From positions 1 to 64,000 of the forward strand of contig WQYA01000006.1 of assembly GCA_009781495.1 (NCBI GenBank): a DNA stretch of 64,000 nt, written 5' to 3'. This document shows positions 57,176-64,000 of this stretch, piece after piece (the stretch's first letter is position 1; each line of letters begins with the position of its first letter). The notes under the pieces are model-generated. The model was not told the DNA's origin. It searched no databases and saw only the letters and a program-made list of their open reading frames with translations. A program made the position numbers and the translations under genes. The stretch is from Cystobacterineae bacterium (GTDB lineage: Bacteria > Myxococcota > Myxococcia > Myxococcales > Myxococcaceae).

Positions 57176-58153
57176 TCACCTGCTCTGCTCCGCCTCAACC
57201 AACAGGCGAGCAACATCTTCCGCCGCATGTTTCGCTCGCCAACGCAGGAGGCGGGCGGCCTTCTCCGGGTTTGCGCTGCTTATGGCAATATCCGAAGGAC
57301 GCATTGCAGCTCTGTTTTGTTGGACATGCTCTTCCCAGTTAAGGCCGCAACATTTGAAGACAGTGGCCGTAAATTCCCTCAAAGAACAGGTGCGGCCGGT
57401 GGCGATAATATAATCATCCGCAATTTCGCTCTGCAGCATGGCCCACATGGCTTCCACATATTCAGGCGCCCAACCCCAGTCACGAACAATGTCCATATTG
57501 CCAAGAATCAGCGTCTCCCTTGCACCAGCAGCAATACGACATGCGGTGCGTACTATTTTTTGTGTGACGAAGCGTTCTGAACGCAAGGGGGATTCATGAC
57601 TGAACAGGATTCCGGAGCAAGCAAAGAGGCCATAGGCCTCACGGTAGTTGGCTACCTGCCAGAAAGCGGCGGCTTTGCCCACGGCATAGGGACTAAGAGG
57701 ATGGAAAGGTGTTGTCTCAGTCGCCGGCTCCAACGTGTTGCCAAAACACTCACTGGAGCCAGCATTGTAATAGCGGATTTTCCCCCCCAGAAAGCGAATG
57801 GCCTCAAGCAGCGTCAGGTTGGCTGTGCCTATGCTGGAAAAAGTGTCCACCGGCTGCTCAAAAGAAAGCCCTACCGAGCTTTGCCCGGAGAGGTTGTATA
57901 TTTCATGCGGCTGCGCCTTGGTAATGGCAACAAGGACGCTGCGGAAATCAGCCGGGTTGGCCGACAAAGTCTGCACAGCATCCTGAATGCCCAATGCACG
58001 CAAATTGGCGAATGAAGCGAACTGCGTATCGCGTGACGCACCAAAAACCCTATAGCCCTTGTCCAGCAAAAAACGCGCGAGATAGGCGCCATCCTGACCG
58101 GAAACACCGAAAATCAATGCATGCTTGGTTATGCGTGCGTCCTGCATGGTCAT
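57176..58153 (-). CDS. GDP-mannose 4,6-dehydratase-like SDR (second copy)
   Basis: 325 residues: dinucleotide motif [30 protein letters not shown], catalytic SSE and [15 protein letters not shown]. It is closely parallel to Gmd along its length but shorter and more divergent, so may be a GDP-hexose-modifying paralogue (such as an RMD-type reductase). Its ATG overlaps the gmd stop by 4 bases. Confidence 0.8.
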
Positions 58154-59355
58154 TCCTTCGTTTCATGCACGGCAAAACCTGTCTGCAGGCACAGGCTGTC
58201 ACGCCGAGCGCCAGCAAAATCTTCCTCCACCATTTCACGCACCAAATCAACAAATGGGGTTTGGGGCTGCCAACCCAACTTTTCGCGAGCCTTTGCCGCA
58301 TCACCAAGCAGGGTTTCCACTTCTGTGGGCCTGAAATAACGAGAATCTACACGCACAATGACCGAACCGGGCCGCAGAGCAGGATTGTTGTTCAACTTGG
58401 CAAGAATATTGTTGAAAAAAGCCTTATGGGTTGCACTCTCTTCTCCGGCGGCCTGGCGTTCTATCAAATCAATTAAGGGGCGCTGGTCAAAAACAACCAC
58501 CCTTCCCACTTCATTCACCCCCTCACCTTCCCAAGCAAGCGTCAAACCCAAGGTAGATGCTGCCAGTTCAATGAATTCACGCACCGAATGCTGTTCTCCC
58601 GTGGCGATGACATAATCCTCAGGCTTGTCCTGTTGGAGCATCAGCCACATCATCTCCACATAGTCCTGGGCATGGCCCCAGTCGCGTAGGACGCTCAAAT
58701 TGCCCATATAAAGACAATCATCCAAACCCAGGACGATGCGCGGAAGGGCACGGGTGATTTTGCGTGTAACAAAGGTTTCGCCCCGCAGGGGGGATTCGTG
58801 GTTGAAGAGGATACCGTTACAGGCATATATGCCATAGGCCTCACGGTAGTTAACCGTAACCCAATAGCCATAGAGTTTAGCGCAGGCATAGGGGGAGCGG
58901 GGATAGAACGGGGTAGTTTCTTTTTGGGGCACTTCCTGTACAAGGCCATATAGCTCAGAGGTAGAGGCCTGGTAGACACGGGTTTTCTTTTCCAAGCCCA
59001 GGAGGCGGACGGCTTCCAAAACGCGCAAAGTGCCAAGGCCATCGACATCGGCCGTGTATTCCGGCAACTCGAAGGAAACCCGCACATGGCTTTGAGCGCC
59101 GAGGTTATATATTTCGTCGGGCTGAATTTCCTGCACCAGGCGGATGATATTCGTGCTGTCCGTCAAATCGCCATAATGCAGAAAAAAGCGTTTATCCTTG
59201 ACATGCGCACCCTGGTAAATGTCGTCTAGGCGCTGGGTATTGAAGAGCGAGGAGCGGCGTTTCATGCCGTGGACCTCATAGCCCTTGGCAAGCAACAACC
59301 GCGCCAAATAGGCGCCGTCCTGGCCGGTTATGCCCGTAATCAGTGCTTTTTTCAT
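58150..59355 (-). CDS. gmd: GDP-mannose 4,6-dehydratase
   Basis: 401 residues: [52 protein letters not shown] and [20 protein letters not shown], all Gmd hallmarks, with catalytic Thr/Ser-Glu-Tyr-Lys set intact. Longer than usual at the C-terminus. Makes GDP-4-keto-6-deoxymannose for fucose, rhamnose or perosamine in surface polysaccharide. Confidence 0.93.
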
Positions 59356-59933: not shown

Positions 59934-62417
59934 ATGAGAATAGCCCTACTTAACGATACGGCGGCGGAGGCACATTGGGGCTGCAACGCCGTATCGGATG
60001 CACATGCTCGAATGTTGGGCCGCGCAGGACACGAAGTGGCCGAACGTTTCTTTATCGGCTGGAACCACGGCATTTCGAAACCGTGGGAACCTTCCTCCGT
60101 CGATCATCTGCTACGCGATGACAGTTTTCGGCAGCGCATAGAGGGTGTTGATGCAGTTGTCCTGAACGGTGAAGGCACCCTACATCACACCAACGGACTC
60201 GCGTGGCTGGCCGCACTTGGTGCTGCTCAGCGATTGGGAAAAATCACGTTGTTGGTGAATGCCGTTTATCAGGACAGTGAATCTCATGAAGACGTCATCG
60301 CGAAATTGGACGATTTTACTGTGAGAGACATCTATTCGCTCGAATATGCAAAATCGAGAGGGTTGTCGGCAAGACTTGTTCTTGACTCCAGCTACGCTGC
60401 ATCATTCACAAATGACAAACTCGCCGACCTCTCTGGAAAGGTTGTATTGACAGATTGGCATCCCTTTCGAACGAGCGATGTCGGCGAAACCATCAAAAAA
60501 CGTGCCTCGGAACACCATGAAAACGTTTTTTTCTTGCCGTTTGCGCGGGCTGATGCGGCCAGGACATGGAGCAAGGGGCCCGCAACATTGTCTACTGCGG
60601 CAGTATTTCATACCGCTAGACACCATGGGGTCTGTTTTGCCATAAAAGCGAAAGTCCCTTTTGTCGCTCTTCCTTCAAACACCTGGAAAATTGATGGGTT
60701 CTTGAAACAATATGGCCCCAAAATTCCGGTGGTCACTTCGTTTCAGGATTTAAAAGAGGCGGAAGCCTGGGCCATTTCAAACCGAGACTATTATGAAAAC
60801 CTTTTTCTACGAGTATCTGAAGAAATGCCGCTCGACACCTTTCGTTGCCTTGGGGTGGAGGAGAAGGATGAGATGGGAGAGCAGCGGGAAGTTGAGCGAC
60901 TTGCCGTTGACCTCAGCAATTATTCCAAAATGAGCCCTTTAATAAATCAAGAACAGGAAACCCAAGCGTTGTCCAAACGATTCATAGACATGCAAATAAA
61001 GTCCGGAGATAAGCTGCTTAGCCTGTGCGCACCACACACCAACAAAGACAACAATCCATCTCTGTCTGACAGCGTGAAGATGAATGAAGCAGCCATACAA
61101 AAACGCAAAAAACGTTTATTTATCTCAGGCGGACTCTTTTCATTGCTCAACATTTTTACCCTTAGGGAACAATTTCCTGAGGATGCTGAAGATGTTCTTT
61201 TATTGCCAAATGAACCGGGAAGTGAGTTGTTTTTTGATAGTCAACTAAAATTGGCGGAAAAAGGAAATTTTGCCAGGATCTTTCCAACCAATTTTCAAAT
61301 TGATGAGTTAAGGGGGCATATTGATTTTGAAGAAATTGACGAGGTATATACCACCTCAAACGTTCGTGTATATCCAGAAGTTAGAGATAAATTTCGGAAT
61401 GCGAAGTATTTTTTCCATGAAGCAGGGTTGACGTCATACATAAAATATTACAACGACAAGTCAATAAAAGGGGCATTTTTCCAATTAATGCACGACAAAT
61501 TTGGCTTCATCAACGACAATGATATCGACATAAAAAAGCTAGATAAAGATATTTTCTTGAAAATTGCTTCTGATATGTCGTGTTGCTATCCAATTCACAT
61601 ACCTTTTTCAAAGACAGACAAAGTAATATTATTTTTGAGTCAATATATTTTGTTTTTAGGCCTTGGTTCTGAACGAGCCGCTTCTCTATATAAAGAAAGC
61701 ATGCGACGTTTGATCGATCGTGGATATAAACTTATATTTAAGGTTCATCCCCGTCATGCCCTAGAAATTCAAGCCTTATTACGAGATACATTTCCACCAT
61801 CGCATTTGTATTTTTTAGATAATATCCTCCCTTCAGAAATTTATGACTTTGACGTTGTTGCGGTTGTATCCTTTTCATCCGGCGGTTTGCTTACAATGAG
61901 CCACCTATACGACCTCCCCGCATTCCATATCGATTTTGACGCTGATTTTAATCTTGAACTCGAAAAATTCTTCCCGCGAGTTATCAGGGAATATACACCA
62001 AGCTTTGAAATTCTTTTGGGAAATGCTGCAGACAAAGCAAAAAATGAATGTCAGAAAATTTTGTGCGAAGTGTTTAATAAGTTCATGTCTGAGAAACCTT
62101 TGCTTTCTGATAATAAAAAATTGAAAGAAGGTCTGGATAACATTGTTGATCTTGCAAAGCATCAACTTGTTAAAAACCAGAAAGCGGCAATAACACATCG
62201 TCTTACGGAAACAGAACATCGCCTCGCAGAAACAGCACACCGTCTTGCAGAAACAGAACACCGTCTCGCAGAAACAGAACACTGTCTTAACAAAACCAGC
62301 GCACAACTCAATGTCGTCTTGACGTCGCGTTCTTGGTATCTGACAAAACCTCTGCGTTTTTTGGGTCGATTGCTACGCAGACTGCTCGGCCGTGGCAACC
62401 GAAAAGGTGACACGTGA
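59934..62417 (+). CDS. Fusion: polysaccharide pyruvyltransferase-like + polysialyltransferase-like protein
   Basis: 827 residues. Residues about 1-310 look like a polysaccharide pyruvyltransferase (LNDTAAEAHWGCNAVSDAH, VLNGEGTLHH, ATLSTAAVFHTARHHGVCFA). From about 384 a second domain resembles the alpha-2,8-polysialyltransferase family with KVHPRH and VVSFSSGGLL; the D/E-D/E-G motif is EAG here. The C-terminus has four heptads HRLAETE and ends SRSWYLTKPLR and a basic helix, typical of glycosyltransferase membrane-tether tails. AT content rises sharply at the domain join. Likely a surface-polymer glycosyltransferase; function inferred. Confidence 0.65.
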   Translation: MRIALLNDTAAEAHWGCNAVSDAHARMLGRAGHEVAERFFIGWNHGISKPWEPSSVDHLLRDDSFRQRIEGVDAVVLNGEGTLHHTNGLAWLAALGAAQRLGKITLLVNAVYQDSESHEDVIAKLDDFTVRDIYSLEYAKSRGLSARLVLDSSYAASFTNDKLADLSGKVVLTDWHPFRTSDVGETIKKRASEHHENVFFLPFARADAARTWSKGPATLSTAAVFHTARHHGVCFAIKAKVPFVALPSNTWKIDGFLKQYGPKIPVVTSFQDLKEAEAWAISNRDYYENLFLRVSEEMPLDTFRCLGVEEKDEMGEQREVERLAVDLSNYSKMSPLINQEQETQALSKRFIDMQIKSGDKLLSLCAPHTNKDNNPSLSDSVKMNEAAIQKRKKRLFISGGLFSLLNIFTLREQFPEDAEDVLLLPNEPGSELFFDSQLKLAEKGNFARIFPTNFQIDELRGHIDFEEIDEVYTTSNVRVYPEVRDKFRNAKYFFHEAGLTSYIKYYNDKSIKGAFFQLMHDKFGFINDNDIDIKKLDKDIFLKIASDMSCCYPIHIPFSKTDKVILFLSQYILFLGLGSERAASLYKESMRRLIDRGYKLIFKVHPRHALEIQALLRDTFPPSHLYFLDNILPSEIYDFDVVAVVSFSSGGLLTMSHLYDLPAFHIDFDADFNLELEKFFPRVIREYTPSFEILLGNAADKAKNECQKILCEVFNKFMSEKPLLSDNKKLKEGLDNIVDLAKHQLVKNQKAAITHRLTETEHRLAETAHRLAETEHRLAETEHCLNKTSAQLNVVLTSRSWYLTKPLRFLGRLLRRLLGRGNRKGDT
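61084..62010 (+). repeat. Direct repeat, copy A (polysialyltransferase-like domain)
   Basis: Matches 62824-63750 at a constant offset of 1740 bases with no gaps at the points checked. The first 36 bases are almost identical (GAATGAAGCAGCCATACAAA). Confidence 0.85.
62196..62288 (+). repeat. 21-base tandem repeat (HRLAETE heptads)
   Basis: Four full units starting at 62196, 62217, 62238 and 62259 plus a partial fifth, encoding a coiled-coil heptad near the fusion protein's C-terminus. In-frame copy-number change is possible. Confidence 0.85.
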
Positions 62418-62808
62418 AGGCGAATATTTCATCGCCTTCGTGCCCTGTTCTGGGTTGTTGTCCAAGCGGACATGGGCGGTTTACGTCAATATTTTCCGAA
62501 ACTTTTTCTGATTATGCAAGCCTACCAATTCCTCGGCTCAGTCCAACATGAGGGCAGGCCCCTTTTTAACCTTCTGACCCAACAGCTTGAGCAACACGAA
62601 CTTTCCGCCTTGCTCTCATATAGCCCGGCTTCCAGAAATTCAGACTGCCGAAGGTGCGCCGGTTTTTATCTGCAAAGAGGAGACGTTATCGTCACAATGT
62701 CATGCAATCAGCCATTCTCTCCGAATAAATATAACGCTAGGTCTTTCTTGTGTTATGCATCTTATTTAGGAGCATTTAGAATATCTCAGTCTTAATAGGA
62801 AATGAGTT
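62418..62808 (+). pseudogene. Possible decayed gene fragment
   Basis: 391 bases without a convincing intact gene. Plus-strand frames look protein-like in pieces: QHEGRPLFNLLTQQLEQHEL in the frame from 62472, then ARLPEIQTAEGAPVFICKEE in another frame near 62625-62690, as if one gene had been frameshifted. No family recognised. It separates the two polysialyltransferase-like copies. Confidence 0.3.
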
Positions 62809-64000
62809 ATGGAACGCAAAGAGAATGAAGCAGCCATACAAAAACGCAAAAAACGTGTATTTGTCTCAAGTGGGCTCTTTTCATTGCTTAACATTTTCAC
62901 ACTTAGAGAACAATTTCCCGAAGATGCGGACGATGTTCTCCTGATATCGGACGAGCCGGGAAATAACTCTTTCTATAAATATCACAAGGAGTTGGCCATT
63001 GGCAGAGGGTTCTCAGAAATCATGCCAACGAATTATGACTTCAGCACCTTGAACAAGCATATTCTATTTGACGAGGTTGATGAAGTTTACACCATATCCC
63101 ATTATTTTGTTCACCATGCAATCCAAGGAAAGTTCAAGCGGGCAAAGTATTTTTTCATTGAGGAAGGGTTAACCTCATATATTAAGTATTATGATGACCC
63201 ATCTGTTGCGGGGGCACTTTTCCTGTTGATGCATGATAAATTCGACTTCATAAATGACAAAAACATAAATATAAAAAAGCTAGATAAAAATATTTTTAGA
63301 AAAATTGCTTCTGATATATCGCTTCGCTCCCCAATTCATATACCCTTTTCAAAGTCAGATAAAGTAATATTATTTCTGAGTCAATATAATCTCTTTTTGA
63401 ATTTTGGGTCTGAACGTGCTGTTTCTTTATATAAAGAAAGCATGAGGCGTTTGATTGATCGTGGATATAAACTTATATTTAAGGTTCATCCTCGTCATAC
63501 AATCGAAATTCAATCTTTATTGAAAGATGTGTTCCCACCATCGCATCTATATTTTTTAGACAATATACTCCCTTCAGAAATTTATGATTTTGACGTTGTT
63601 GCGGTTGTATCCTTTTCATCTGGTGGTTTGCTTACAATGAGCCACCTATACAATATCCCAGCATTCCATATTGATTTTAATGCTGATTTTGATCTTGAAA
63701 TCGAAAAATTCTTCCCACGGGTTATCAAAGAATACACGCCTAATATTAGAGAAATTTTTGAATTAAAAAATGATATAGCAAAAGAAGAATGCAGGTATGC
63801 ATTGGACCAACAATTCAAAAAATTTCTCAAAAACAAACCGCTACTTTCAGAAAACGCAATGCTGCATGAGGATTTAGATGAAATCATAGAGCATGTCATA
63901 TATCAAACATCAAAAAACCTTAATAAACCTATAACGATATCAAAAAAACAAGTCAGAAAGCTTTGCGATACCTTGCGTATCTGGGACGTACCAAAATTTA
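62809..64000 (+). CDS. Polysialyltransferase-like protein, partial (runs off the window)
   Basis: 397 codons are read without a stop to the end of the window. Starts MERKENEAAIQKRKK; AGGA lies 8 bases before the ATG. Motifs match the D/E-D/E-G, HP and SS pattern of bacterial polysialyltransferases and related GT-B enzymes: IEEGLTSY, KVHPRH and VVSFSSGGLL. It is a stand-alone copy of the C-terminal domain of the preceding fusion gene. Sequence is AT-rich. The acceptor and donor are not shown. Confidence 0.7.
   Translation, partial: MERKENEAAIQKRKKRVFVSSGLFSLLNIFTLREQFPEDADDVLLISDEPGNNSFYKYHKELAIGRGFSEIMPTNYDFSTLNKHILFDEVDEVYTISHYFVHHAIQGKFKRAKYFFIEEGLTSYIKYYDDPSVAGALFLLMHDKFDFINDKNINIKKLDKNIFRKIASDISLRSPIHIPFSKSDKVILFLSQYNLFLNFGSERAVSLYKESMRRLIDRGYKLIFKVHPRHTIEIQSLLKDVFPPSHLYFLDNILPSEIYDFDVVAVVSFSSGGLLTMSHLYNIPAFHIDFNADFDLEIEKFFPRVIKEYTPNIREIFELKNDIAKEECRYALDQQFKKFLKNKPLLSENAMLHEDLDEIIEHVIYQTSKNLNKPITISKKQVRKLCDTLRIWDVPKF
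62824..63750 (+). repeat. Direct repeat, copy B (polysialyltransferase-like domain)
   Basis: Second copy of the domain duplication, gapless with 61084-62010. Differences are spread along the length, so the duplication is not recent or has been diversified. Confidence 0.85.

Follow-up and report, generated by a model that had tools for sequence, protein, structure and literature searches.

How has a single locus come to carry two copies of a polysialyltransferase-like domain attached to different partner enzymes, and do both copies still act as enzymes? The question is raised by a window of 64,000 bases from a Cystobacterineae bacterium (assembly GCA_009781495.1, contig WQYA01000006.1), taken from the start of a contig of 84,107 bases in an assembly of 2.27 Mb that is 88% complete. 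Two neighbouring genes are concerned, namely gene A, where a pyruvyltransferase-like domain precedes the common domain (copy A), and gene B, where the common domain (copy B) precedes a radical S-adenosylmethionine (SAM)/SPASM domain. This genome, hereafter G000, was considered together with two further genomes of its genus, G001 (record WQTM01000223, metagenome-assembled genome (MAG) Co191P4bin16) and G002, the three being 88-99% complete. The explanation favoured here, with moderate confidence, is a modular surface-polysaccharide locus with mosaic polysialyltransferase-like domains in two fusions, copy B being the working enzyme and copy A a binding module.

Two fusion genes with one domain in common

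The region at 61082-62150 repeats without gaps 1741 bp downstream, with 73% identity at the DNA level and about 67% at the protein level. Across 61084-62149, identity amounts to 72.6% at an offset of 1741 versus 31% at 1740 or 1742, and the two repeat families delineated by a repeat finder (D1 and D2) both have the 1741 spacing. In a preliminary description of this DNA, a gapless tandem duplication at a constant offset of 1740 bases had been proposed; the repeat and its gapless nature stand, and the offset is to be corrected by one base. Identity between the copies is very uneven, the extremes per 60 bases being 48% and 95%, and identical stretches of 35, 34, 32 and 27 bp occur at this offset. 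An assembly artefact, a doubt raised at the time, is very unlikely since the copies differ at 27% of sites, their flanks differ and an A-type fusion is present in the separately assembled G001. The view of the second copy as a stand-alone gene is ruled out, as its open reading frame (ORF) runs 908 bases past the window edge and encodes a radical SAM/SPASM domain. Gene B had simply been cut off at the window end and the full gene encodes 699 aa, so that both genes are fusions with one common domain:

59934-62417, + strand: gene A, ORF of 827 aa from ATG, with a pyruvyltransferase-like domain, polysialyltransferase-like copy A, a coiled coil of 7-residue repeats and an SRSW tail
60090-60674, + strand: match to PS_pyruv_trans (PF04230), gene A residues 53-247 (41 bits, cut-off 25.3)
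61062-62153, + strand: copy A, polysialyltransferase-like GT-B domain (PF07388 match; homology with copy B)
62194-62289, + strand: tandem repeat of 21-bp units in frame, encoding HRLAETE heptads and counted at 4.5 copies
62325-62414, + strand: SRSWYLTKPLRFLGRLLRRLLG, amphipathic C-terminal tail common to the downstream methyltransferase gene (sequence comparison)
62418-62808, + strand: spacer between genes A and B (blastn/tblastx)
62809-64000 within the window, + strand: gene B, reaching contig position 64908 (L003:4809-6908), with polysialyltransferase-like copy B and radical SAM/SPASM (ORF, domain matches)
62809-63906, + strand: copy B, polysialyltransferase-like domain (PF07388, 59.7 bits; top Foldseek match the Mannheimia polysialyltransferase MhPST, 5wc6, for a low-confidence model)

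As proposed in the preliminary description, the domain belongs to a polysialyltransferase-like family (PF07388, bacterial polysialyltransferase, GT38-like; cut-off 23.3 bits), with 43.7 bits for copy A, 59.7 for copy B and 58.2 for the copy found in G001, and the upstream gene is indeed fused to a pyruvyltransferase-like domain. Like polysaccharide pyruvyltransferases of the CsaB/WcfO type, the N-terminal half of gene A lies above the Pfam cut-off; unlike them, it stays far under the cut-off of the CsaB equivalog TIGR03609 (26.7 bits for 213) and is fused to a polysialyltransferase-like domain. A literature search for pyruvyltransferase-polysialyltransferase fusions returned none, which is weak evidence of absence.

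Mosaic structure of the common domain

In a codon alignment of copy A, copy B and the G001 copy, informative sites switch the closest pair twice, at columns 149 and 309, and the mosaic gains 106 in log-likelihood, where none of 60 shuffles gained more than 14. Synonymous divergence (dS) was computed with segment ends set at columns 148 and 313, and the segments read as follows on copy A:

61170-61505, + strand: segment 1, columns 37-148; copy B and G001 close (dS 0.60), copy A with synonymous sites saturated versus both
61506-61985, + strand: segment 2, columns 149-308; copies A and B close (dS 0.65), G001 saturated
61986-62153, + strand: segment 3, beyond column 308; copy A and G001 close (dS 0.70), copy B saturated

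Control comparisons of three orthologues at the locus give a dS of 0.57-0.66. Every segment combines a shared lineage, about as old as the species split, with an allele of far greater age. Recombination between the copies, or with unseen relatives, did occur and the copies were not recently homogenised; as the dS of the close A-B pair equals that between species, no recent exchange between A and B took place, and dS gives no support to recent gene conversion or phase variation. Of the recombination on direct repeats evoked earlier, the three-segment mosaic and the identical runs left behind remain, its recent or switching role does not.

The first switch falls between the acidic motif, in the N-terminal half on the acceptor side, and the HP and Ser-Ser motifs, in the C-terminal half on the donor side, and the exchange would thus have paired different acceptor and donor halves. 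The breakpoints appear to lie near the boundary of the acceptor-binding N-terminal half and the nucleotide-donor-binding C-terminal half. The locus offers a concrete route to surface-polymer diversification, in which enzymes carrying different additional activities recombine within a glycosyltransferase domain, close to where its two substrate-binding halves meet. Capsule polymerase genes such as meningococcal siaD are modular and exchanged by homologous recombination. The likeness resides in a polymer-determining glycosyltransferase being swapped by homologous recombination, the difference in an exchange that here takes place within the domain and involves copies or alleles joined to different fusion partners.

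Motifs, donor sugar and predicted roles

The difference of one acidic residue between the copies, EAG in one and EEG in the other with HP and Ser-Ser kept in both, was correctly reported in the preliminary description:

61419-61427, + strand: E-A-G in copy A, Ala at the catalytic-base position (sequence, alignment; base assignment from PMC5517516, PMC2169525)
61746-61751, + strand: HP motif of copy A, donor phosphate and catalytic acid (alignment)
61875-61880, + strand: Ser-Ser of copy A, equivalent by position of MhPST S339/T340 (alignment; PMC5517516)
63160-63168, + strand: E-E-G of copy B, acidic motif intact, placed by the model in the loop that follows strand five (alignment, model)
63487-63492, + strand: HP motif of copy B (alignment)
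63616-63621, + strand: Ser-Ser of copy B (alignment)

In the alignment, the G001 copy has EEG as copy B, and H227-P228 and S270-S271 are invariant across the three copies. In MhPST, the second residue of the acidic motif, E153, is the catalytic base and E153A is essentially dead, while E152A entails a drop in activity of about 300-fold (PMC5517516); the meningococcal (NmB) enzyme loses its activity with either E153A or G154A (PMC2169525). In copy B, residue 119 is found near position 131 of the PF07388 profile, which would agree, the shift being constant, with the meningococcal motif at E153. With Ala at the catalytic base and HP and Ser-Ser kept, copy A is predicted to bind the donor without catalysis; judging from these motifs, copy A resembles a pseudo-enzyme that naturally lacks the base, and copy B seems intact. 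Copy A would be the natural counterpart of the E153A laboratory mutant, and the pair can serve to test whether a dead glycosyltransferase domain persists as a binding module.

An AlphaFold model from three sequences exhibits two alpha/beta halves, with the acidic motif after the fifth strand as described for MhPST, and its best PDB match by Foldseek is MhPST itself (5wc6, E 3.4e-7, template modelling score 0.40), for a predicted local distance difference test (pLDDT) of only 52. A search of PDB sequences for relatives of the domain found none, the two weak matches, to a receptor, being due to chance. The resemblance to GT38 polysialyltransferases (MhPST 5wc6, NmB SiaD, Escherichia coli NeuS) comprises the PF07388 match, the D/E-D/E-G motif in copy B, the HP and Ser-Ser motifs and the Foldseek match; unlike this family, the domains have no sequence-level match to its PDB chains, are fused to other enzymes, lack the base in copy A and occur in a genus where NeuB was not found. 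No NeuB-family synthase came up at E<=10 in G000, G001 or G002, which makes polysialic acid unlikely. In G000, a CTP_transf_3 search retrieved KdsB as the sole cytidylyltransferase, and a CDP-glucose synthase model gave sub-cut-off matches only; from this gene content, the donor would plausibly be CMP-3-deoxy-D-manno-oct-2-ulosonic acid (CMP-Kdo) or a CDP-linked sugar. For annotation, this cautions against taking PF07388 matches as a sign of polysialic acid when no nonulosonate pathway is present.

Respective to gene B, its second half exhibits a SPASM domain (PF13186, 38.6 bits, cut-off 21.5) and aligns with BtrN (E 1.9e-10), as expected of BtrN-like SPASM radical SAM enzymes; unlike these, its radical SAM domain scores below the Pfam cut-off and its cluster motif is CGFNWSIC, i.e., C-X3-W-X2-C (TGG codon), in place of the C-X3-C-X2-C also present in the distant relatives L028 and L029. 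The radical SAM half is probably inactive, or the TGG a sequence error.

Origin of the copies and surrounding locus

Among 195 genomes of the phylum, the PF07388 domain is present in G000 and G001 only (Pfam and own profile); a scan of genome contigs for relatives retrieved the G001 contig only, and none were found in viral contigs, plasmids or phages. In G001, one copy is present in a 944-aa orthologue of gene A (L011:10078-12912) with the same neighbours on both sides, residues 1-376 of gene A being 83% identical, and G002 has no copy and other genes at the same position. In the spacer of G000, debris at 62471-62511 and 62560-62613 (blastn/tblastx) corresponds to two gene ends that follow copy A in G001, where they are intact: 3' for the fusion gene, 5' for a GT4 gene. 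A G001-like junction came first in G000; the stretch carrying gene B took the place of the old GT4 gene. Copy B is located inside a 10.7-kb stretch otherwise unrelated to G001, with a G+C content (GC) below that of its flanks. The domain has 35-38% GC (36% for copy A, 35% for copy B) in a window of 53%; outside the domain, gene A is at about 49% and the radical SAM half of gene B at 36%; with both the domain and this half of low GC, the domain was probably imported with a low-GC, B-like gene.

In the favoured explanation, a low-GC GT-B domain was probably acquired horizontally together with a gene like B and would have been spliced into the pyruvyltransferase gene before the split of G000 and G001, giving the two present fusions, pyruvyltransferase-polysialyltransferase-coiled coil-tail and polysialyltransferase-radical SAM/SPASM. 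The three-part mosaics arose afterwards, as divergent alleles or copies underwent homologous recombination. Copy B, with EEG, HP and Ser-Ser, is probably a working inverting glycosyltransferase using a CMP- or CDP-activated sugar, plausibly CMP-Kdo; copy A most likely serves as a module that binds acceptor or donor without catalysis and, by way of the coiled coil and tail, may hold the pyruvyltransferase at the membrane and on the polymer as it grows. Several points weigh against this explanation. The scaffold role of copy A is deduced; the donor is a prediction, G000 being 88% complete and CDP-sugars being conceivable donors, with sub-cut-off matches for the one CDP-glucose synthase model; the weak three-sequence model makes structural equivalences approximate, and no pairwise alignment with MhPST was obtainable; EAG in copy A and C-X3-W-X2-C in gene B each come from a single codon of one MAG, the former without reads. 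A broader proposal, where a base-null domain is a carrier module for the pyruvyltransferase and where acceptor half, donor half and attached enzyme are separately evolving cassettes swapped by recombination, is rather doubtful.

A plain duplication in place of the gene A domain in this species, followed by divergence, faster in the N-terminal half of copy A after loss of function, would agree with the orthologous gene A and single copy of G001 and with the loss of the catalytic base; it is nonetheless unlikely, as it predicts one tree along the domain where the closest pair switches twice, as lost constraint cannot cause synonymous saturation of segment 1 in copy A versus both others while the rest is at dS 0.65, and as copy B sits in the unrelated low-GC stretch. 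That A and B form an active switch, deleting or swapping the intervening segment and varying the surface polymer, draws on the identical runs, on traces of past recombination and on a predicted deletion product that is in frame, both ORFs being in register in the alignment. This is distinctly unlikely, with A and B as divergent as species even in their closest segment, with an A-type tail in G001, which is therefore no deletion product, and with spacer debris placing the G001-like junction first; G001's single copy as a 1741-bp deletion product is ruled out on these last two grounds. Under the favoured explanation, recombination between the repeats could still produce a pyruvyltransferase-polysialyltransferase-radical SAM fusion in frame, with no sign of current occurrence. 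As for genuine polysialyltransferases whose product would be polysialic acid or some other polymer of nonulosonates, the family match, conserved HP and Ser-Ser and EEG of copy B are set against the lack of NeuB in the three genomes, KdsB as sole CTP_transf_3 and, tentatively as considered without alignment, no Arg at the MhPST R259 spacing, making this very improbable.

The region is a surface-polysaccharide locus. Upstream, two adjacent GDP-mannose-dehydratase-type genes (57176-59355) differ in length and are conserved in G001. The next gene downstream encodes a methyltransferase whose coiled coil and tail are of the type seen in gene A. A multi-GT4 protein and two ORFs without Pfam match follow, then a second methyltransferase, an ATP-binding cassette (ABC) transporter (ATP-binding) and another glycosyltransferase. 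Chain-length control by WbdD involves a coiled coil (PMC3482155). By analogy only, from domain layout, the methyltransferase, heptads and amphipathic tail of the next gene and the ABC transporter at the locus recall WbdD-type chain-length regulators of ABC-transporter O antigens, which differ by their kinase domain. The 21-bp HRLAETE unit is also present in the downstream methyltransferase gene (L003:7543-7587); in gene A, the 4.5 units compare with 6.8 in G001 (L011:12352-12494), a difference between species that may reflect a variable-length coiled coil. The 1237-aa multi-GT4 protein (L003:7962-11675) has no DNA-level similarity to the 1305-aa one of G001 in the same place.

Genomes of the genus measure 2.1-2.7 Mb, for mostly 5-13 Mb otherwise in the family, and the genus, with its reduced genomes, is probably related to Polyangiaceae, perhaps as a Pajaroellobacter-like lineage. 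Co191 designates Cornitermes, a litter-feeding termite, and four Polyangiaceae MAGs are listed in that study (PMC7024585); G001 is a MAG from the gut of this termite. A search against a defence-system library gave no match. At the same chromosomal position, G002 (L018, G002:C4:40001-60000) harbours a different polysaccharide gene set, comprising a nucleotidyltransferase/HAD-phosphatase-like fusion, an epimerase and another PS_pyruv_trans-like protein just under the Pfam cut-off.

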